Below are positions 1 through 40,298 of a DNA stretch of 45,850 nt, one piece after another. The position numbers were made by a program, and so were the translations under genes. Each line of letters opens with the position of its first letter. Position 1 is the first letter of the stretch. Source of the DNA: Verrucomicrobiales bacterium (GTDB taxonomy: Bacteria > Verrucomicrobiota > Verrucomicrobiia > Limisphaerales > CANJXF01); the NCBI GenBank assembly GCA_947478865.1, contig CANJXF010000034.1:1-45850 (forward strand), written 5' to 3'. Below the pieces are notes generated by a model. That model ran no database searches, had not been told where the DNA came from, and saw only the letters and a list, made by a program, of their open reading frames with translations.

Positions 1-1
1 A

Positions 2-121
2 CCCCGCGCGGTGAAACGCCGCCCCAAGAACTTTCGCTTGCTCACCAAACCGCGACACCAAATGGTGGTGGAGCGTTGTCGGAAGTGGTCACAAAAACCA
101 TCGAAACAGGCCCTTATCTAA
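2..121 (+). pseudogene. C-terminal end of an IS4-family-type transposase, cut by the window edge
   Basis: An open frame runs from the window edge to a TAA at 119-121. Its last about 39 residues contain the pattern RAVKRRPKNFRLLTKPRH, which matches the usual C-terminal tail of IS4-type DDE transposases (VKRRPK, then a basic stretch ending in PRH). The catalytic core would lie left of the window, so I cannot tell whether the element is intact. The roughly 20 residues after PRH are longer than usual for the family, which may indicate read-through past the original end. No inverted repeat marking the element's right end was recognised downstream. Confidence 0.6.
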
Positions 122-462
122 GCGCCATTCGGGTCAGTCCGGAGTAATTACACAAGTCCGAGTTCAGGTGGGTTGTTCGTTTCATTTTTGTCCTTCGCAT
201 TATCCAGGCGGTTGGCGGCGTGCGTCCCTGGCCCATACTCCATTCGCAACGCACGGGGCATGACCCAACCCTACCGAACCGCCGAGTTATTGTAAACACT
301 CCAAACTGACCCCTTTGCGTAGGCGCAATCGCAGAGAGCGCCCCAGCTAATCGCAGGACACGGTGGAACGCGTCCCGACCGTCTTTGTGGACAGCATTTC
401 CAGGTTTGATTTCCGCGAACTCTCCTTTCTTCCGGCAACACTAGGGAAGCACCCGCCAGGAA
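122..462. other. Intergenic, no gene recognised
   Basis: About 340 bases between the transposase tail and the phased repeat array. Only short overlapping open frames occur, with no recognisable protein motifs. No terminator with a T-run and no convincing promoter was found. It may contain the right end of the IS4-type element, but no terminal repeat could be defined. Confidence 0.5.
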
Positions 463-833
463 CAAGCGTGTGTTGCCGAAAACACGGTTGTTTTAGCAAG
501 AAGCAAACTTGCTTAGCTTCAAAAAACCCTGCAAAGCTCCGGAACAAACGTGTTCTAGCCCATGCTCGTTTGTTTTGAATAAAAGCAAACCTGCAAAGGA
601 TCAAAACAAACCTGCTTTTATCTGGAACAACCGTGTTTTCATCAAAACACGTTTGCTTTGGCAAAAAACAAACTTGCTTAGCTTCAAAACAAACCTGCTT
701 TTGCCAACGCACGTTTGTTCCGGGCAAAAACAAACCTGCAAGCTCATTTACAAACTTGTTCTGCTCTAAAGCAAACCTGCATGGTCTGGAACAAACTTGC
801 AGAGGAGCAAAACAAACTTGTTCAGAGGTGGGG
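463..833. repeat. Helically phased array of 18 short units, mean period 20.6 bp
   Basis: Eighteen units start at 463, 483, 504, 524, 545, 565, 586, 607, 628, 648, 669, 690, 710, 731, 751, 772, 792 and 813. Intervals are all 20 or 21 bp (350 bp over 17 intervals). Each unit opens with a conserved 9-mer, mostly CAAACYTGY, followed by about 11-12 variable bases, often ending in AAAA or GGAA. Some units carry CAARCGTG and the following one its reverse complement, CACGTTTG. This pairing recurs at 463/483, 545/565 and 628/648, giving a higher-order repeat of four units (82-83 bp). A 21-base stretch at 504 recurs exactly at 669. The period is not a multiple of three and alternates 20/21, so the long open frames across it cannot be repeat proteins. 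Two helical turns per unit would put every core on one DNA face, which suggests (inference) an array of protein-binding sites. The family is not recognised. Confidence 0.8.
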
Positions 834-1428: not shown

Positions 1429-2043
1429 ATGGCTACATACAGAGTCAGCTTAGCATTCGCACGGCTCGCCGATGCGAAACTCAACACCACCGCGGAGTCG
1501 ATCATCGCCTCGATGACGGGCAACGCCGGGTTCACCACGCCGATCGTCAGCATGGCTGCCCTAGGAGCGGCCTGCAGCTCATTCGTCAACGCATTGGTTG
1601 AAGCGCAGGACGGCGGCAAGCGGTCCGTTGCAACGAAGAACGTTGCGCGTGAAGTGCTGGTGAACTTGATCCGCCAAGAGGCAGCCTACGTGCAAAGCAT
1701 CGCCGGCGAAGATCTGCCGCTGCTGCTCTCGAGCGGATTCGAAGCGGTGAACAACAACCGCGCGCAAATCAAGCTGCCCAAGCCGGTGATCGACCGCGTG
1801 GACAACCCGATGAGCACGCAGCTCGGGGTGCGCGTGCAGCCGGTTCCGACGGCAGCGGCCTACGAGATCCGCGTGCGTTACGGCGCGAACGGCTGGGAGG
1901 CAGCGGGAATTTTTACCCAGGCTCGCTCCATCATCGTTGCAAACCGGACCCCGGGAACGGTCTATGATGTGCAAGCGCGGGCCGTCGGCGGCAGCACCGG
2001 CTACAGCGATTGGAGCGATCCGGTTTCCCACATGGCCATGTGA
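1429..2043 (+). CDS. Small fibronectin type III domain protein
   Basis: Predicted 204-residue protein starting at ATG 1429, preceded by GAAAGG with good spacing. An upstream in-frame start at 1255 gives a longer, low-complexity N-terminus and is less likely. Residues about 1-115 are mainly alpha-helical with no motif I recognise. Residues about 125-200 form one fibronectin-III-like beta sandwich, with the typical pattern AAYEIRVRYG, then PGTVYDVQARAVGG and a final SDWSDPV (the WS-D strand end). There is no signal peptide or membrane segment, which is unusual for an FN3 protein meant for the surface. Short FN3 proteins of this shape are common in Verrucomicrobiota, but their role is unknown. 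A strong terminator lies 76 bp downstream, so the gene is probably transcribed alone. Confidence 0.8.
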   Translation: MATYRVSLAFARLADAKLNTTAESIIASMTGNAGFTTPIVSMAALGAACSSFVNALVEAQDGGKRSVATKNVAREVLVNLIRQEAAYVQSIAGEDLPLLLSSGFEAVNNNRAQIKLPKPVIDRVDNPMSTQLGVRVQPVPTAAAYEIRVRYGANGWEAAGIFTQARSIIVANRTPGTVYDVQARAVGGSTGYSDWSDPVSHMAM

Positions 2044-4095: not shown

Positions 4096-4266
4096 ATGCC
4101 AGACCAAGCTCAAAAACAGCGCCCGATGACTCCGGGTTCGGGCAGCGGCGGCGACGGCCCGAGCGCGCCCAAAGTGGACAAGCCTAACACGGAGGAATTG
4201 CTCAAGCGAATGCGCAAGGTCGATCCCGACCAGGCCAAACGATACCGTCAACGCACCGGCCAATGA
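4096..4266 (+). CDS. pup: Ubiquitin-like protein modifier Pup/UBact
   Basis: 56 residues from ATG 4096, missed by length-limited gene finders. The first 30 residues are disordered (Gly/Pro/Ser-rich, GSGSGGDGP). The second half is helical and charged, NTEELLKRMRKVDPDQAKRY, and the protein ends in RQRTGQ. This matches UBact, the Pup homologue of Gram-negative phyla including Verrucomicrobia, with its R-T-G-(Q/E) tail. Pup tags are joined through a C-terminal glutamate to lysines of target proteins, which are then unfolded and degraded by the proteasome. Because this tail ends in Gln, deamidation by a Dop-type enzyme would be needed before ligation. The stop codon overlaps the prcB start (ATGA, 4 bp), indicating translational coupling. 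The ribosome-binding site is weak. Confidence 0.9.
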   Translation: MPDQAQKQRPMTPGSGSGGDGPSAPKVDKPNTEELLKRMRKVDPDQAKRYRQRTGQ

Positions 4267-5036
4267 GTCAAAGGGCTTTGATCGCGGGTGATTTTCTCTC
4301 GTTGCTCGACGAGCATAAACTGCCCCCGTTTCGCCACGAACTTTCCGGGGCCGCCCCCGTTCAAACCCAGGCAACGACCGTCTTCGCATTTCATTTCGCG
4401 GACGGAATTCTGATGGCAGGCGATCGCCGCGCGACTGCCGGGAATGTCATCGTCACCGACCGCGTTGACAAAGTCATCGAGATCGATGCCACGTCGCTGC
4501 TCGCCATTGCCGGTGTGCCAGCGACGGCATTCGAAATGGCGCGCGTGTTGCAGACTTCGTTCGAATATTATCGGCGCAGCCAACTGCAAGCGCTGAGTCT
4601 TCCCGCAAAAGTCCGCGCGCTCGCGCGGCTGCTCCGCGACAATCTGCCGATGACAATGCAGGGCATCGGGGTGGTCGTTCCGCTTTTTGCGGGGCTGGAC
4701 CATTCCACGTCTCCGGCCAGTCCGCGGGTTTATTTCTACGATCCACTTGGCGCGCAATTCCAGGCTGTCGGTTACGCGGCCTCGGGGTCCGGCTCTGGAA
4801 CGATCCGCAGCATTTTAAGCTTTCAGGAGCAACACGGGAAACCGCGACCGTCGCAGATGAATCTCAGCCAGGCCGTGCAGTTCGCACTGCGCCTGTTGAT
4901 GACCGCTTCGGAATTTGATTCGGCCACCGGCGGCGTCAATCCGGCGACGGAAACATTCGCCACGCTGAAAGTTTTGAAATCGACCGGCGTGGAAACGATC
5001 AGCGAAGAACAGCAGAAACAATTTTTGAAATCCTAA
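4263..5036 (+). CDS. prcB: Proteasome subunit beta (catalytic)
   Basis: 257 residues. The beta subunit forms the two inner heptameric rings of the 20S proteasome and cleaves unfolded proteins through an N-terminal threonine exposed by self-processing. A 37-residue propeptide precedes T38 in QATTVFAF. Counting T38 as Thr1, the other active-site residues fall exactly in place: D17 and R19 in LMAGDRRAT, and K33 in VDKVIEI. The residue before the cleavage point is Ala where actinobacterial PrcB has Gly. The IAGVPATAFEMARVLQ stretch matches the family's TGIAG region. The gene starts inside the pup stop codon and is followed by prcA after an 86-bp spacer holding a hairpin and a hexamer repeat, so the three genes probably form one operon. 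Confidence 0.95.
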   Translation: MSQRALIAGDFLSLLDEHKLPPFRHELSGAAPVQTQATTVFAFHFADGILMAGDRRATAGNVIVTDRVDKVIEIDATSLLAIAGVPATAFEMARVLQTSFEYYRRSQLQALSLPAKVRALARLLRDNLPMTMQGIGVVVPLFAGLDHSTSPASPRVYFYDPLGAQFQAVGYAASGSGSGTIRSILSFQEQHGKPRPSQMNLSQAVQFALRLLMTASEFDSATGGVNPATETFATLKVLKSTGVETISEEQQKQFLKS

Positions 5037-5053
5037 TCGGCTTTAAGGCCGAT
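5036..5053 (+). other. Small hairpin directly after the prcB stop
   Basis: ATCGGC at 5036-5041 pairs with GCCGAT at 5048-5053 around a 6-base loop. There is no T-run, so it is not a typical terminator. It may moderate the ratio of beta to alpha subunit expression or protect the upstream mRNA (inference). Confidence 0.4.
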
Positions 5054-5070
5054 CGCTGAAACGAAGATCA

Positions 5071-5112
5071 GGATTAGGATTAAGATTCGGACTAAGACTA
5101 AGATTAAGGACA
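5071..5112 (+). repeat. Hexamer tandem repeat (RGAYTA) between prcB and prcA
   Basis: Seven in-phase hexamers read GGATTA, GGATTA, AGATTC, GGACTA, AGACTA, AGATTA, AGGACA. The consensus is RGAYTA. The last units merge with the purine-rich ribosome-binding region of prcA (start 5123). Such a simple repeat can change copy number by slippage and would then alter the prcB-prcA spacing without changing any protein. Confidence 0.75.
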
Positions 5113-5122
5113 GAGACGGAAC

Positions 5123-5860
5123 ATGACTGAAGAACCGTATCGTTGGTTGGAAGCGGTGGGAAATCGCCGTGAATACGTCCGCGAACAGCTCAAGGGCGGA
5201 TCACCGGTGCTGGGGGCGAGTTTGCCGGACGGAATTCTCTTGCTCGGCATCGGCGGCGGACAATCGAAGGTCTTTGAATTATTCGATCGCCACGCCCTGG
5301 CCGGTTTGGGCCATCCGGCGGATATTGAGAAAATTCGTCAAGCGGCCATCGACGCGGCGCACATGGAATCATTCACGCGCGCACCGGAAGACGTGAGCCT
5401 GCGGCGCTTGATTGGCTTCGGGTTAAGCCCGCAATTGAAAACCAACTTTGAGCAAATTTTCAGCGCGCCGTTTCTCGTGGAACTGCTGCTGGCGGAAATC
5501 GGTTCCAGCCAGGAGCACGACTTGTTTTCTCGCCTGCACTTCGACGGCTCGTTCCAAAACCAGCATGGCGGCATCGCCGTCGCTGCGAGCGATGCGGACG
5601 CGGAATCTGCGGCAACAACCTGGCTGACGGAAGCGAACGTGCCCGCAAAGCCTCGCGGCCAAGCCGCTGAGTTCCTGTTGCAAGCCTGGTGGTGTCTAAG
5701 CGCAAATAAATCGTTCGCCGCTCTTCCTCCCGAGGAGGAACGACGCAACGGATGGCGGGAAGCCGTGCGTGGAAAAACGGTTGAAATCGGCTGGCTCGCG
5801 CGGACCACTCCGCGCCTGGCGCGCTATCAGACCCTGACACTTGCGAATTTGGATTTGTAG
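5123..5860 (+). CDS. prcA: Proteasome subunit alpha
   Basis: 245 residues. The alpha subunit forms the outer, non-catalytic rings that gate the 20S chamber and dock the unfoldase. The best-conserved stretch is ILLLGIGGGQSKVFELFDRH followed by LAGLGHPADIEKIRQ, which aligns with the family's [25 protein letters not shown] region. The N-terminal catalytic Thr is absent, as expected for alpha. Divergence from actinobacterial PrcA is high, and the last about 20 residues carry no obvious conserved C-terminal motif. It follows prcB on the same strand and is followed by the Pup ligase gene 31 bp later. Confidence 0.85.
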   Translation: MTEEPYRWLEAVGNRREYVREQLKGGSPVLGASLPDGILLLGIGGGQSKVFELFDRHALAGLGHPADIEKIRQAAIDAAHMESFTRAPEDVSLRRLIGFGLSPQLKTNFEQIFSAPFLVELLLAEIGSSQEHDLFSRLHFDGSFQNQHGGIAVAASDADAESAATTWLTEANVPAKPRGQAAEFLLQAWWCLSANKSFAALPPEEERRNGWREAVRGKTVEIGWLARTTPRLARYQTLTLANLDL

Positions 5861-5891
5861 CAGAGCTTGATTGAGTTGGACTAGGAAGTTT

Positions 5892-7322
5892 ATGAATCGC
5901 GTCGTTGGTCTGGAAACTGAATACGGTTGTCTCACGAACGACCTCCCCGGAATTCCCAGCGCGGTGACACGGGTGCGCGATTGGATTTTTCGCGAGCAAC
6001 GCTACGGATTGATCGACGTGCATCAACGCGACTGGGACGAGCCGGCCGGCAATGGCGGTTTCCTCTTCAACGGCGGCCGCGCTTACATCGACATGGGCCA
6101 CCTGGAATATTGCACCCCGGAATGCATGTCGCTCATTGACGTCCTGCGTTACGACCAGGGCGGCGACGCGATCCTCCTCGAAGCGGTGAAGGATTTGCGC
6201 TTGGAGAAGAACGTAAATTTCATCCGAAACAATATCGATCACTACTCCGGCGCAACCTTCGGCTGCCACGAAAACTATCTCGTCCGCCGCACCGCGCCGC
6301 TCACCGAGGCCAACGTCCATTCGCTGCTGGCGTTTCTCACGTTGCGATTGCTTTATGTCAGCGCCGGACGCGTTGGCGCGACGCTTGCCGCCGAGTCGCG
6401 CGGAGAATTCACCAAGCCTGGGGCGGACAATGTTTTTCAAATCAGCCAGCGCGCCGACTACATCAACAACGATCTTTTCGAATGGGTTCAGTTTAATCGC
6501 GCCATCATCAATACCCGCGATGAACCGCTCGCCGACGCCCGAAAATATCGACGCCTCCATCTGTTGCACGGAGACACGAACGTTCTGCCCACCACGTTGT
6601 TGCTGAAAGTGGGAACAACGTCGCTCGTGCTCGATTTGCTGGAACTGGACTGCCTTCCCAAAATAATGCTCGCCGATGCGGTGATGACTTTTCGCACCGT
6701 GGCCCATCAACTCACCGGACCGTGGCTGGTGCCATTGGCGGACGGACGCTGCGTGGATGCAATCGAACTCTTGCAGCAATATCAAGAGGCGGCAAAACGT
6801 GAACTGCGCGGGCGCGACAAGGAAACCGACGACCTTTTGAAAATCTGGGGCGCGACTCTCGCCTCACTCGCCCGAGAGCCCGATGAACTGGTCGGCAAGG
6901 TGGACTGGATCACCAAACATTGGCTGCTCAAACAATTCAAGGATCAGGAAAAAATTGATTGGAGCGATGCCTGGCTGAAATCACAGGATCTGGAATTTCA
7001 TCACGTGGATCCGCTGCGCAGCCTTGGCCTGGCGCTGGCGCAAACCCCTGCTCCGTGGAACATCTCCGCGCAAGAAATCGCCGAAGCGACTTTGCATCCC
7101 CCAAAGAACACACGAGCCCACGTTCGCTCCCGCGCCATGCAATTGCTGAGCAAACAAGCCGTCGAATACTACGTCGATTGGGAAATCATTGGAGCGGAAG
7201 GCGGCGATTCACTCCATTTGCTTGATCCGTTTGACGCCTCTCCACGCGAAGCGGAATCCTGGAGCCGCGACCTCGGTGACACCAGCCACAAACCTTCGCA
7301 GCGCCGGCATAAAACCGAGTAA
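5892..7322 (+). CDS. pafA: Pup/UBact ligase family enzyme (PafA, with Dop-like traits)
   Basis: 476 residues from ATG 5892, preceded by AGGAAG; the frame also opens at TTG 5871. The family is related to glutamine synthetase. PafA uses ATP to join the Pup C-terminal glutamate to a target lysine; its sister Dop deamidates and removes Pup. Family motifs include VVGLETEYG at the N-terminus, NGGRAYIDMGHLEY with the essential Asp, GCHENYL, AIINTRDEPLADARKYRRLH and LKVGTTSLVLDL. GCHENYL and the position after prcA favour PafA. The residues FQISQRADYI, GRVG and GGDSLHLLDP are closer to Dop, and a short insertion (about residues 35-55) lies where Dop has its Dop-loop. Since the tag ends in Gln, a deamidase activity is also required somewhere. 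I call it PafA by synteny, with the subgroup open. Confidence 0.8.
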   Translation: MNRVVGLETEYGCLTNDLPGIPSAVTRVRDWIFREQRYGLIDVHQRDWDEPAGNGGFLFNGGRAYIDMGHLEYCTPECMSLIDVLRYDQGGDAILLEAVKDLRLEKNVNFIRNNIDHYSGATFGCHENYLVRRTAPLTEANVHSLLAFLTLRLLYVSAGRVGATLAAESRGEFTKPGADNVFQISQRADYINNDLFEWVQFNRAIINTRDEPLADARKYRRLHLLHGDTNVLPTTLLLKVGTTSLVLDLLELDCLPKIMLADAVMTFRTVAHQLTGPWLVPLADGRCVDAIELLQQYQEAAKRELRGRDKETDDLLKIWGATLASLAREPDELVGKVDWITKHWLLKQFKDQEKIDWSDAWLKSQDLEFHHVDPLRSLGLALAQTPAPWNISAQEIAEATLHPPKNTRAHVRSRAMQLLSKQAVEYYVDWEIIGAEGGDSLHLLDPFDASPREAESWSRDLGDTSHKPSQRRHKTE

Positions 7323-11238: not shown

Positions 11239-11811
11239 CTATTCCATCGTGAGCACATTGGTTTGGCCGTTCCATTCCAAGGTGACAGATTGGCGATCTA
11301 TTTTTACGACACGAACGCCAGCAATCAGCTCGCCGGCTCCCACGGTCTTGCCATTGATCAGCGCAGTCGACTGATTCAATCGATAAAAAATCCCCTGGAG
11401 TTTTAATTGCGGTGGAGCGACTGGCGCAGGCGCGGCGACGGAGGTTGCAGCGGCAACATTGTTGGTTGGCTCCAGCGGGATTGAACTGACCACTGCACTG
11501 GCTGGCGATCGTGGCGCGTCAACTTGAGGGACGCCTGGCACCGGTGTGATCGGGCGTTGCAGCGCGACCGATGGGGCCACCGGCTCGCCGGATTTGTTGT
11601 TCGTAACGACTTTAGTTCGAGCGCCATTCCAAATGAAAAAAGCGACGACCAACAAAAGAAACGCGAAGGCGCCCAGAATTTTTGCCGTGGCGGAAGAAGC
11701 AAATCTCTCCGGCGTAAGGACCGGCTCCATCGGTGCGCCCGCAGAAGTTGGGCTGACCTGTCCCTGACCGTTCTGTTTGCCGCGCCGCAGCGCATCGTTT
11801 ACCAGGCTCAT
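11239..11811 (-). CDS. GspB-like membrane protein, partner of the ExeA-type ATPase
   Basis: 190 residues from ATG 11811; longer frames upstream are ignored because this start overlaps the ATPase stop by 4 bp. The N-terminus MSLVNDALRRGKQ is the short cytoplasmic motif shared by GspB/ExeB-type proteins (S-x-I-x-x-A-L-x-x-A). One membrane helix follows (AKILGAFAFLLLVVAFFIW), then a Pro/Ala/Val-rich linker, then a C-terminal domain (LKLQGIFYRLNQSTALINGK...VVKIDRQSVTLEWNG) like the C-terminal domain of GspB/GspC. In type II secretion, GspA and GspB help place the outer-membrane secretin. No other secretion genes are nearby. Confidence 0.8.
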   Translation of the reverse strand: MSLVNDALRRGKQNGQGQVSPTSAGAPMEPVLTPERFASSATAKILGAFAFLLLVVAFFIWNGARTKVVTNNKSGEPVAPSVALQRPITPVPGVPQVDAPRSPASAVVSSIPLEPTNNVAAATSVAAPAPVAPPQLKLQGIFYRLNQSTALINGKTVGAGELIAGVRVVKIDRQSVTLEWNGQTNVLTME

Positions 11812-12623
11812 GCGTCGATATTCCCTTCGAGTTCCCGAATGGCGCGTCCCACAATCCAAAAATCGATGCGATCGCGCGCGTGAACAAATCCGGCGAGAAG
11901 ACATTTATCACACAACGCATTGATCAAGCGCGGGATCCCCTGGCTGTAGCGATGAATCCGCCACAGAGCTGGCGCGCTGAAATAAGGCGGACCTTTTCCA
12001 CCGGAGATATGAAGCCGATGTTGAACATACTGACCGACCTCAGTGTATTTCAGCGGGCGAAGATGGTAACGGACGGTGATGCGCTGCCGCAGTTGCCGAA
12101 GCCCGTGATGATTCAGGCGCTCGCGCAATTCCGGTTGCCCCATCAACACGATTTGCAGGAGTTTGCGGTCGTCGGTTTCCAGATTCGACAGCAGCCGAAC
12201 CTGTTCCAACAAGTCATTCGTCAGATCCTGCGCTTCGTCGATAATCAATACCGTCTCCCTGTCCCGGGCCATTTGTTGCAGAAGAAAATGATTAATCTCA
12301 GCAATGGTTTCCAGTCGATCGAGACCTTTGGCGTTAAGACCAAATTCTGTCGCAATGGATTTGATCAATTGGTCGGGGTCCAGCGCGGGATTGATGATCA
12401 AGGCGGTTGAAAAATTGCTGCCGAGTTGATCGAGCAAAGCGCGGCAAAGCGTCGTCTTTCCAGCTCCAACTTCGCCGGTCAATTGCACAAACCCTTTTCG
12501 CTCACGAATGCCGTAGAGCAAATGGTTGAAGGCCTCGCGATGTTTGGCGCTGTAAAAAAGAAACTTCGGATTTGGCGTGATGTTAAATGGCGGCTCGCTC
12601 AGGCCGTAATATTCCAAATACAC
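11808..12623 (-). CDS. ExeA/GspA-like AAA ATPase
   Basis: 271 residues starting at GTG 12623. The N-terminus MYLEYYGLSEPPFNITPNPKF is the typical opening of the ExeA/GspA/MSHA MshM group. Walker A is GEVGAGKTTL (about residues 50-59), Walker B is VLIIDEAQDL and a sensor-like QIVLMGQPEL follows. Unlike full GspA there is no C-terminal membrane helix or peptidoglycan-binding domain, so this is the short ATPase form also found near PEP-CTERM/exopolysaccharide loci. It overlaps the GspB-like gene by ATGA, so the two are probably translated together as partners. The 65-bp gap to hisC is the largest in the train. Confidence 0.85.
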   Translation of the reverse strand: MYLEYYGLSEPPFNITPNPKFLFYSAKHREAFNHLLYGIRERKGFVQLTGEVGAGKTTLCRALLDQLGSNFSTALIINPALDPDQLIKSIATEFGLNAKGLDRLETIAEINHFLLQQMARDRETVLIIDEAQDLTNDLLEQVRLLSNLETDDRKLLQIVLMGQPELRERLNHHGLRQLRQRITVRYHLRPLKYTEVGQYVQHRLHISGGKGPPYFSAPALWRIHRYSQGIPRLINALCDKCLLAGFVHARDRIDFWIVGRAIRELEGNIDA

Positions 12624-13798: not shown

Positions 13799-15097
13799 TC
13801 ACTTTGCTTCCAATCGAACCTCGCTGGATCTGCCATGCGCGCTCAATCCTTCGAGCTCGGCAAATTTTTTCACGGCCGGCAGCGCCTTCTTAAGGGAGGC
13901 GCGATTGTATTCAACAACGCTTGTGCGTCGTTGAAATTGATCCACCGTCAAGCCGGGAAACGATGCCCCTGCCCCGCCCGTTGGCAGCGTGTGACTCGGC
14001 CCCGCGACATAATCGCCGAGAACCGTCGGAGAAAATCCGCCGAGGAAAATTGCGCCGGCTGTGAGAATTTTTTCTGAAACTTTGGCGGCCTGACGCGCCA
14101 TCACTTCGCAATGTTCGGGCGCAATCTGATTCACCAGCTGCACGCCCTGATCCAGGTTTTTCACGTGAATCAGCCATCCGTTGTTTTTCAAGGCGCGCTC
14201 GATGAACTCCCGTCGCGAAAGCTTCGAGAGCTGGCGGGCTATTTCCGCTTCAACCGCACGCAGCATCTTCGCTGAATTCGTGATGAGCCAAACGCGTTCG
14301 TGACCCGATCCATGCTCAGCCTGGGCCAGCAAATCGGCCGCGGCAAATTTTGGATTGGCGGTTTCATCCGCCAACACGAGTACCTCGCTCGGGCCGGGCA
14401 AAAGATCGATCGCGACGTGGCCAAACAACAACCGTTTCGCGGCGACAACATATGCATTTCCAGGACCGAAGATTTTCTGCACCCAGCGAATTGTGGGAGT
14501 CCCAAGCGCCATTGCCGCAATCGCCTGCGCGCCGCCAATTCGGTAAATCTCGGTCGCTCCCGCCGCGCGAATCGCGAAGAGCAGCGACGGATTTATCACA
14601 CCCGTCTTGCCCGCCGGCGTGCAGACCACGATCTCGCGGCACCCTGCCACACGCGCCAAAGTGATGGTCATCAGCGCCGTCGAAACCAATGGCGCGGTTC
14701 CTCCAGGAATGTAAATTCCGACGCGCTGAAACGGATCATATTTTTCGCCGACCGTGCCTCCGTGGCTGTTGCGAATCGACCAGCCTTTGCGAAGTCCCTT
14801 CCGGCTGAACGTCTCGATATTTTTTTTCGCAACCTCAACCGCGCTGCGCAGCGCGTCATCGGCCTTGACGGAGGAAGAGAGCAGTTCAGCCTGAGTCACA
14901 GCGAATTGTTCCGACGTGAGTTTCACTCCGTCAAATCGCTCCGTGAATTCCGCAAGAGCAGCATCACCCCGCAACTTGACCGCGTCCACAATTTCGCGGG
15001 TGCGCTGCTCAATGGCTGGATCAAAAAGACTTGAGCTCGCGGTAAGCTCGCGAATGCGGTCGGCGAAATTGAGGTCTCCGAATCGGACAATTTTCAT
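13799..15097 (-). CDS. hisD: Histidinol dehydrogenase
   Basis: 432 residues. Catalyses the last two steps of histidine synthesis, histidinol to histidine, with two NAD+ and a zinc ion. Signatures include VGIYIPGGTAPLVSTALMT, EIVVCTPAG, IGGAQAIAAMALGT, KIFGPGNAYV, AIDLLPGPSEVLVLAD, QAEHGSGHERVWL and the C-terminal GPSHTLPTGG. Only hisD and hisC are present here, so the remaining his genes lie elsewhere. The gene sits 34 bp downstream of tsaD in the same direction. Confidence 0.97.
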   Translation of the reverse strand: MKIVRFGDLNFADRIRELTASSSLFDPAIEQRTREIVDAVKLRGDAALAEFTERFDGVKLTSEQFAVTQAELLSSSVKADDALRSAVEVAKKNIETFSRKGLRKGWSIRNSHGGTVGEKYDPFQRVGIYIPGGTAPLVSTALMTITLARVAGCREIVVCTPAGKTGVINPSLLFAIRAAGATEIYRIGGAQAIAAMALGTPTIRWVQKIFGPGNAYVVAAKRLLFGHVAIDLLPGPSEVLVLADETANPKFAAADLLAQAEHGSGHERVWLITNSAKMLRAVEAEIARQLSKLSRREFIERALKNNGWLIHVKNLDQGVQLVNQIAPEHCEVMARQAAKVSEKILTAGAIFLGGFSPTVLGDYVAGPSHTLPTGGAGASFPGLTVDQFQRRTSVVEYNRASLKKALPAVKKFAELEGLSAHGRSSEVRLEAK

Positions 15098-16926: not shown

Positions 16927-18489
16927 TCAAGTGACCGGATGCGGTTTGCGCCAGGCGTGGCTGCGTTGTGCAAGCAGTTCGTCTGCAGCGACCGGCCCCC
17001 ACGTACCCGATGAATAAATCTCGCTCTCACTGAGCGGAATTTTTTCCCAGGCCTGGCGGATCGGATCGACAATGCTCCATGCGGTTTCCACTTCATCTCG
17101 ACGAATGAAGAGAGTCGCGTCGCCCGCCAATACTTCGAGCAGCAGGCGTTCATAAGCTTCCGGCGTGTAGGCTCCAAATTCCGCATTGTAATCGAAATGC
17201 ATTCGGACCGGACGAATCTCCAAACTGGTGCCGGGGACCTTTCCATTGAACCGCAGGAAAATTCCCTCATTGGGCTGGAGGCGAAGCGTAATCGCATTCG
17301 AATCAAGGTTTGTCCCGCATTGCGCCGCAAACAAGACGTTGGGCGTCGGGCGAAATTGAATGCGCACTTCGCTGGCACTCATGGGAAGACCTTTTCCCGT
17401 GCGCAAATAAAACGGGACGCCAGACCAGCGCCAGTTATCAATCAACGTCCGCATGGCGACAAACGTTTCCGTATTCGAATCAGGGCGCACTTTAATTTCC
17501 TGGCGGTAAGCGACGCGCGCTTGGCCATCAATTTCACCGACGCCGTATTGACCGCGCACGACATTGTTCGCAACCTGGCTTGCGTCGAGCGGACGAATCG
17601 ATTTGAGCAACTTCACTTTTTCATCGCGAATGGACTCCGCTTCCAGGGAAACGGGCGGCTCCATGGCCACCAGCGCGAGGATCTGCAATAAATGGTTCTG
17701 CACCATGTCGCGCAGCGCCCCGGCTTCTTCGTAGTAACCGCCACGCCCGCCCACTCCAAGTTTTTCGCTCACCGTAATCTGCACTTGCTCGATGCATTGC
17801 CGGTTCCAAAGCTGCTCAAAAATCGCGTTGGAAAAACGAAACATCAAAATGTTTTGCACCGTCTCTTTGCCCAGATAATGGTCGATACGGTAAATCTGTT
17901 TTTCGAAAGCGAACCGCGTCAGCTCGGCGTTCAATTGTTGCGCGGAGATGAGATCGTGACCGAACGGCTTTTCCACCACCACGCGTTGCCAGAACTTTTT
18001 CCCCTCCTCGCGGTGGAGAAGGCTGGCTTTGTGCAGATGCTCCACCACTTCGGCGAATTGGCTCGGCGACGTCGAAAGATAAAAAAGCAAATTGCGGCGG
18101 AGCGATTCGTGGCCGAACGACTCGAGCTGCGTCTCCAGTTTTTTATAGGCATTGAGGTCCGAGAATTCGCCCTCGCAATAAAAAACATTCGCGGCAAACG
18201 CCTCCCACTGAGCGGCGTCCACGCTCTTGGTTCTTGAGAATTTTTGGAGATCCTCTTTCAGCTCCTCGCGCCAGCTCGCGTCGGATTTCTCCCGCCGGGC
18301 GAAGCCGATGATGCGAAAGGGATTCGGCAATTGCTTTTCGCAAAATAAATGGAACAAGGCAGGAATCAGTTTGCGTGCGGTCAAGTCGCCGCTGGCGCCG
18401 AAGATGACAATGGAACACGGCTCAACGGTTTTCCGCCCGTAGTCCAACCGGCAGCTTAATAATTCGTCCAACTGATCTAATTGATCCAT
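16927..18489 (-). CDS. zwf: Glucose-6-phosphate 1-dehydrogenase
   Basis: 520 residues. Oxidises glucose-6-phosphate with NAD(P)+, the entry to the oxidative pentose phosphate pathway. The nucleotide-binding loop is [11 protein letters not shown] (residues 30-40), the EKPFG motif lies at 173-177 and the substrate-binding RIDHYLGK at 201-208. [13 protein letters not shown] and the [10 protein letters not shown] segment also fit. It is the first gene of the eight-gene minus-strand train. Its promoter should lie in the 162-bp divergent space shared with the response regulator gene at 18652, but no clear -35/-10 pair stands out. Confidence 0.97.
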
Positions 18490-38914: not shown

Positions 38915-38989
38915 TGGAGCCAGTTGTCGGATTCGAACCGACGACCGACGGTTTACAAAACCGTTGCTCTACCACTGAGCTAAACTGGC
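38915..38989 (-). tRNA. tRNA-Thr (anticodon UGU)
   Basis: A complete 75-base cloverleaf on the minus strand: acceptor GCCAGTT/AACTGGC, D-arm GCTC/GAGC with loop AGTGGTA, anticodon stem ACGGT/ACCGT with loop TTTGTAA (anticodon TGT), variable CGGTC and T-arm GTCGG-TTCGAAT-CCGAC. The 3' CCA is encoded in the DNA. It reads ACA (and by wobble other ACN) threonine codons. It marks the border of an accessory region. Confidence 0.97.
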
Positions 38990-39401: not shown

Positions 39402-40298
39402 ATGAAAAGTCAGAAGTCCGTAAACTCAAAATCCAAAACATCCGCGTTAACGCCAGTCGAAAGACCATCCGCTTACGATCAAACGTTGAAAAAACTTCGT
39501 TTGGTCGAAGTTGTTAAAAACATGGACGGGCACCACCAAGAAACGATGTGCATGAACGTAAAGAGTGAGCAATTTTACATTGTTCAACCTTGTGGCGAAT
39601 TCGAAAAAATCACATTCCAGCGAAGTGTCGCGTATTATCGAGACATCCACGAACGCTCAACCGGATGGGGTGCTGGCGAGGGAATGGTCGAATGGCTCAC
39701 AATTATTGAATGCATGTTGAGCGATTCCAAACCCGCTCGTCTCGACATCGAACCACTGCTGACCCGACCGGTGGGACGTCCTTCAAACACGCCGGTAGTC
39801 TGGTATGCCGGTTTTTTGTATCAGGCAAAGAGTTGGGATCGTGCCCGTCGCGTAGTAGCCAAAGTAGAGTGGCACAATGGTGAATTATTCCCTCGCGTCG
39901 GGTTCATCGTGACCAATCTAACCCGGCCAGCCAAACGGGTGGTGCGATTCTACAACCAGCGGGGCACGGCGGAGCAGTGGATCAAGGAAGGTAAGAACGC
40001 CGTCAAATGGACCCGCCTGTCCTGCCACGACTTTGTGGATAATCAGGTGCGGCTGCAACTGTTCGTGCTGGCCTACAACCTGGGCAACTTTCTGCGGCAA
40101 GCGGTGCTGCCAAGAGCGGTGCGACATTGGACATTGACGACGTTGCGGGAGAAACTGATCAAGATCGGGGCGAAGGTCGTGCGCCATTCCCGGAAGATCG
40201 TCTTCCAGATGGCAGAGGTGGCGGTTCCGCGAGAGTTGTTCCGGGCTATTCTTGAAGGGATTAACCGGCTGAGATTGCCTGTAACGTCATCTGGATGA
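39402..40298 (+). pseudogene. Chimeric gene: unknown N-terminal protein fused in frame to an IS1380 transposase tail
   Basis: 298 codons from ATG 39402. Residues 1 to about 118 (MKSQKSVNSKSKTSAL..., then ETMCMNVKSEQFYIVQPCGEF and WGAGEGMVEWL) match no family I know and do not resemble a transposase. From about 39756 (LLTRPVGRPS) the frame continues as the C-terminal part of an IS1380 transposase. The fusion is exactly in frame, with no stop at the joint. The N-terminal DDE residues are missing, so the product cannot transpose. A hybrid protein could still be made. Confidence 0.75.
39756..40298 (+). mobile_element. Truncated IS1380-family element (3' part of transposase)
   Basis: The reading frame contains the IS1380 hallmarks YQAKSWDRARRVVAKVEWH, FPRVGFIVTNL, RFYNQRGTAEQWIKEGKNA (with the last catalytic Glu), LFVLAYNLGNFLRQ and a tail up to GINRL. 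The 5' part encoding the first two catalytic aspartates is absent. The right end of the element was not located with certainty; it should lie between 40298 and about 40506, where DUF1552 sequence begins. Confidence 0.85.

Follow-up and report, generated by a model that had tools for sequence, protein, structure and literature searches.

The window analysed here is a stretch of 45,850 nucleotides which forms the entire contig C34 of a 4.40-Mb draft genome with 114 contigs. At its left edge lies the right end of an insertion sequence (positions 1-130, plus strand), in which the C-terminus of the transposase extends to position 121. It is directly adjoined by a MITE-like element at 131-312 with terminal inverted repeats of 22 bp (82%). 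Both elements are neighbours of a repeat array at 463-820 and are located outside of it. The next confident gene downstream of the array (1429-2043, plus strand) encodes 204 aa without a match in Pfam or NCBIfam; DNA resembling its 3′ part was found on contigs C71, C43, and C50, and our data showed no link between this gene and the array. The remaining contig is chromosomal and harbors genes for proteasome subunits, Pup ligase, histidinol dehydrogenase, glucose-6-phosphate dehydrogenase, and pyruvate dehydrogenase. In this genome of the order Limisphaerales, the proteasome cluster (4263-7319) comprises the beta subunit (4263-5036), the alpha subunit (5123-5860, weak match), and the Pup ligase (5892-7322). 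Further features are an XrtA/PEP-CTERM-associated ATPase-like protein, slightly under the family cut-off (11811-12623), and a partial IS1380-type transposase (39402-40298) whose match is confined to the final third of the family model. The histidinol dehydrogenase gene includes the sequence TTTTTCACGTGAATCA (14157-14172), which differs from the parS consensus by two mismatches; 12-mers similar to it are scattered genome-wide without clustering.

The array comprises 18 near-palindromic cores with the consensus R-CAAACNTG-Y, in which N is chiefly G, C or T, the left side is A-rich, and the right side is T-rich. Cores start at positions 463, 483, 504, 524, 545, 565, 586, 607, 628, 648, 669, 690, 710, 731, 751, 772, 792, and 813. 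A preliminary description of the locus had named 18 units phased at 20.6 bp, and we recovered this architecture with core-to-core steps of 20, 21, 20, 21, 20, 21, 21, 21, 20, 21, 21, 20, 21, 20, 21, 20, and 21 bp (mean 20.588 bp). The steps are only 20 or 21 bp, as described, and two 20-bp steps are never adjacent; the alternation of both lengths is common but not strict. Alignment of the units by their cores shows little or no variation for C (position 0), A (positions 1 and 2), C (position 4), T (position 6), and G (position 7). The base at position 5 is G, C or T, the bases before the core are A-rich, and the core is followed by Y and T-rich sequence. The length of the core is 8 bp and that of the spacer 12-13 bp; the units at 524 and 565 are degenerate. 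As the whole site is near-palindromic (consensus about AARCAAACNTGYTT), the inverted cores at 483, 565, 648, and 710 share the register of the direct cores. The first three of these recur every four units, but the next one, at 710, follows after three units and the final five units of the array are all in direct orientation. The four-unit higher-order repeat proposed earlier is therefore real but partial, and is lost beyond unit 10.

Low-complexity DNA, which the preliminary description had considered as a possible artefact, is not a suitable explanation, since the spacers differ, the flanks are unique, and stop codons occur in five of the six frames, although the contig end lies only 462 bp upstream. 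A coding origin was likewise rejected on the basis of these stop codons, a unit which is not a multiple of three, and the lack of Pfam matches in the crossing ORFs. Intrinsic curvature was dismissed as a feature of the array; the predicted values, calculated from wedge angles, are unremarkable and average 1.08 for the array and 1.08 for shuffled sequences.

The periodicity was assessed independently of the motif. Autocorrelation, the check suggested at the outset, gave peaks at lags of 165 (0.49), 82/83, 41, and 62, compared to a maximum of 0.38 at any lag in 200 shuffles. A motif-free scan, which scores any period from 12 to 60, assigned a period of 20.6 to the array with a score of 0.525, and random (Markov) sequences of genome or array composition reached 0.18-0.23, with a maximum of 0.23. 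Phase is maintained across 350 bp, the core positions deviating from a straight line with a residual of 0.34 bp; 3% of the step permutations reach this residual (p about 0.03 for step order), and, as a result of block duplication, the units are not independent of each other. Pairwise identity between units is 0.73 in the 8-bp core and 0.42 at the other 12 positions; the core value exceeds those of all 400 simulations of uniform divergence (highest value 0.72).

The duplications can be traced within the array. As claimed in the preliminary description, a stretch of 21 bases, CAAACTTGCTTAGCTTCAAAA, is repeated exactly at a distance of 165 bp or eight units and can be read from the plus strand at 504-524 and 669-689. 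Blocks of 82/83 bp within the array are 67-83% alike. In addition, two inverted duplications were detected. In the first, the left arm (463-514) is 75% complementary to the right arm (604-655), with unit mapping onto unit; in the second, the arms at 539-588 and 674-723 are 76% complementary.

The array is not alone in its genome. A motif search detected the window core as an array only once, and the same genome contains further arrays with the same spacing and other cores, which is the new and unexpected outcome of the genome search. These were detected by the motif-free scan, which covered 2.3 Mb of the 4.40 Mb with an over-representation of contig ends. When multiples of three are set aside, the three strongest periods in these 2.3 Mb are 20.6 bp (the window array), 20.7 bp (C27, about 496-752), and 20.8 bp (C81, about 17350-17620), the latter two with stops in all six frames. 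Periods of 21.0 bp were found at C91 (13170-13470) and C9 (about 96240-96460), both with some open frames, and an array at C3 (72593-72660) with the core ATTCAGC was found by pattern search only. The arrays on C27, C91, and C3 have the core ATTCAGC in common, with GCGGANG about one turn further. The distinct cores indicate that the genome harbors at least three families of cores that share one spacing. The non-coding status is clear for C34, C27, and C81, with stops in all or nearly all frames, and probable for C91, C9, and C3; it is less certain for C91 and C9, whose 21-bp steps and partly open frames would also suit a coding origin. An automatic open-frame filter is of no use here in GC-rich DNA. 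In the C27 array, pairwise identity is 0.80 in the core and 0.45 in the rest, 0.80 being the top simulated value; the core of C81 is weak, and its conservation is not above the null of uniform divergence. The positions of the arrays with respect to genes are inconsistent: downstream (C9, C81), between divergent genes (C91), or upstream (C27, C34). Our initial assumption that a single gene family follows the arrays had to be dropped, and inspection of the surroundings of the arrays revealed neither a binding protein nor a consistent gene context.

The comparison with known systems upheld the earlier statement that the array matches no established class. Rfam reports no family over the array and a tRNA at 38918-38989 as the sole match in the window, homologous DNA is absent from the plasmid and phage records, and neither the motif sequences nor phased intergenic arrays are described in open papers (subscription papers and preprints were outside the search). 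CRISPR repeats of 23-50 bp with unique spacers of similar length differ from a unit of 20.6 bp with a core of 8 bp, and cas families are absent among the window ORFs scanned, the left flank being cut by the contig end. Plasmid iterons are tandem sites of about 20-22 bp which are bound cooperatively by Rep proteins on the same helix face. The window array is similar in that its sites are of comparable length and, with a mean step of 20.59 bp, lie in tandem on one face of the helix, which makes iterons the nearest architectural analogue. It differs in being chromosomal, in its 18 units in both orientations, in the lack of rep genes or Rep families among the ORFs scanned, and in the occurrence of several core families within one genome. 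Plasmid partition centromeres such as parC/ParR or the omega heptads of pSM19035 consist of short sites in tandem, on which a protein rod is nucleated; in contrast to these, the array has no adjacent par genes, another unit length, and more than one site per replicon. The nearest described genomic analogue are the STAR elements of staphylococci, which consist of a 14-bp GC-rich motif, T(G/A/T)TGTTG(G/T)GGCCC(C/A), with spacers of 40 bp or more and 1-7 units per locus (PMC3532100). They resemble our arrays in that their direct repeats are intergenic and dispersed across the genome and combine a conserved motif with variable spacers, and their function and spreading mechanism are unknown; the window array differs by its 8-bp core, 12-13-bp spacer, 18 units, and strict two-turn phase. 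The TAACTGA heptamers of Beggiatoaceae likewise form many intergenic direct-repeat sets of one motif, also present in distant phyla and of unknown role, but have a 7-bp unit in 2-6 copies and are mostly proposed to act in RNA (PMC4679880).

The conserved core, the free spacer, the kept phase, and the near-palindrome point to a read-out of duplex DNA by a protein with contacts between neighbours two turns apart. We therefore propose, with a probability of roughly 0.45, that the array is a tandem-site platform for the cooperative binding of a dimeric DNA-binding protein and acts as duplex DNA. Cooperative binding had been suggested in the preliminary description, and the sequence features are consistent with it. 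The candidate binder would probably be of the helix-turn-helix or ribbon-helix-helix type and would recognise one near-palindromic site in each 20.6-bp unit. With a spacing of two helical turns, the 18 dimers would line up along the same side of the duplex, each in contact with the next, and such contacts could lead to a cooperative rod-like or wrapped nucleoprotein complex. The outcome may be local chromosome organisation or silencing, for instance of the adjoining DNA rich in mobile elements, rather than regulation of a single gene; the inconsistent gene orientation at the arrays argues against single-gene control and in favour of a structural or silencing role at the local level. Each core family would be matched to one protein, and the arrays may have grown by direct or inverted duplication of whole-unit blocks, through which phase would be retained.

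The strongest rival is a functionless, diverged minisatellite, in which slippage or unequal exchange gave copies of 20-21 bp that diverged later. Other genomes would then possess their own minisatellites of similar length, and the length itself would stem from a biased duplication process. The history of block duplication is clear from the exact copy 165 bp apart and the direct and inverted blocks, and arrays of about 21 bp, many of them coding-compatible, are common among the sequences examined. Moreover, a selection of genomes by motif would also catch minisatellites which happen to hold it, and a Bacillota sample unselected for the motif showed little enrichment (5 genomes, G414 aside, versus 2 in the backward control). 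However, the contrast between core and spacer is not produced by uniform divergence, random indels do not yield a mean of 20.6 bp that stays within about 1 bp along 18 units, and a single genome has unrelated cores whose spacing converges on 20.6-21.0 bp. We consider this explanation possible but rather unlikely. A still lower probability is assigned to a structured non-coding RNA, a single-stranded DNA hairpin, or a cruciform built from the inverted units as the functional form. It would account for the folding energy of the window array, which is far below that of dinucleotide shuffles for both strands (z -7.3 and -6.2) and also below that of core-preserving shuffles (z -6.9 and -5.9), and certain arrays in other phyla fold well too. 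On the other hand, the sister arrays C27, C91, and C9 show no excess of RNA folding over shuffles (z between -1.6 and +1.5), which led us to reject structured RNA as a feature of the class and suggests that the property common to the arrays is one of the duplex. With the weakly folding C81 as an exception among the sister arrays, the fold in the window is thus best read as a trace of inverted block duplication; its long stems result from the inversion of whole units. The lack of an Rfam family, the absence of a sigma-70-type promoter match in 1-2300, and a 20.6-bp step that an RNA does not need also speak against it.

About as improbable is the idea that the array belongs to the adjacent mobile elements or serves them as a landing site, with its units as transposase-binding end repeats. 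The insertion sequence and the MITE-like element lie within 330 bp of the array, and the arrays on C27, C81, C91, and C9 are about 0.4 to 2.4 kb from contig ends, where repeats break the assembly, but contig ends are over-represented in the sequence examined. Bases 1-130 recur at six other genome sites with at least 98% identity and without the array, other copies of the insertion sequence align only to about 130-142, and a MITE copy with 91% identity (query 131-315) at C64:23773-23958 lacks the array as well, so that membership of the array in either element was rejected. Transposase sites known at element ends are few, in contrast to the 18 sites here. A centromere or replication origin of the parS/parC or iteron type, in line with the earlier suggestion of a nucleoid or segregation site, appears highly improbable. 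Iterons and ParR/ParB-type arrays are direct repeats of about two turns and resemble the array in this respect. Yet rep, parA/parB, and parM/parR are absent among the window ORFs scanned and the contig carries chromosomal housekeeping genes. There is also no parS site in the array and no parS cluster, the one site with two mismatches being far off at 14157, and a single genome contains several unrelated arrays. Neither these results nor the unremarkable curvature support a nucleoid, segregation, or origin role for this locus.

Beyond the window array, a protein-binding platform of this kind might be one member of an undescribed, widespread class of bacterial chromosomal elements, two-turn phased intergenic arrays, for which the presence of more than one non-coding 20-21 bp array per genome, as found here, would be characteristic. 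Such a class, with lineage-specific core families of which AAACNTG is recurrent, up to dozens of arrays per genome, and a dedicated organising or silencing protein cooperatively bound to each, is a speculative proposal. The search among relatives suggested in the preliminary description gave only background levels of arrays with the window core in 384 genomes of the taxonomic class, and none in the order-level relatives searched. A scan of GTDB contigs for three phased CAAACNTG units returned many matches, mostly with 21-bp steps and coding-compatible. Apparently non-coding, diverged, and phased arrays were observed in one Bacteroidales genome (two loci), Lentibacillus, Paucisalibacillus, Rossellomorea, Coriobacteriaceae, Tannerella, Prevotellaceae, and Phycisphaerales. 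AAACNTG-like arrays occur in certain Bacillota, Bacteroidota, and Coriobacteriaceae, with dozens per genome in a few. AAACNTG pairs at 20-21 bp clearly outnumber the backward control in Lentibacillus (104 to 4), Tannerella (86 to 2), Rossellomorea (61 to 6), and Coriobacteriaceae (31 to 0), and the excess is small in the Bacteroidales genome (27 to 21); these genomes were picked by motif, so the counts show dispersal within genomes and not a universal core. A universal AAACNTG core is indeed unsupported by the unselected Bacillota sample. A moderate excess was found in the Lentibacillus family (11 of 120 genomes versus 4 in the control, two of the 11 having been known beforehand), in which the spacers that surround the shared AAACNTG vary among species. 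Where a core has been lost in other genomes, double steps of 40-44 bp show that the phase is retained.

If dedicated proteins bind the arrays, these would be a chromosomal counterpart of iterons and centromere arrays. They are absent from the repeat and RNA libraries used and recognisable from sequence alone through their helical phase, and a motif-free phase scan could detect them genome by genome. Easily grown carriers such as Lentibacillus and Rossellomorea would allow a direct test of the binding protein. Many dispersed AAACNTG arrays of 20-21 bp are present in the genomes of Lentibacillus (L044), Rossellomorea (L128), Tannerella (L090), and Coriobacteriaceae (L098), and the Tannerella unit includes the palindrome AAACGTGCGCACGTTT.
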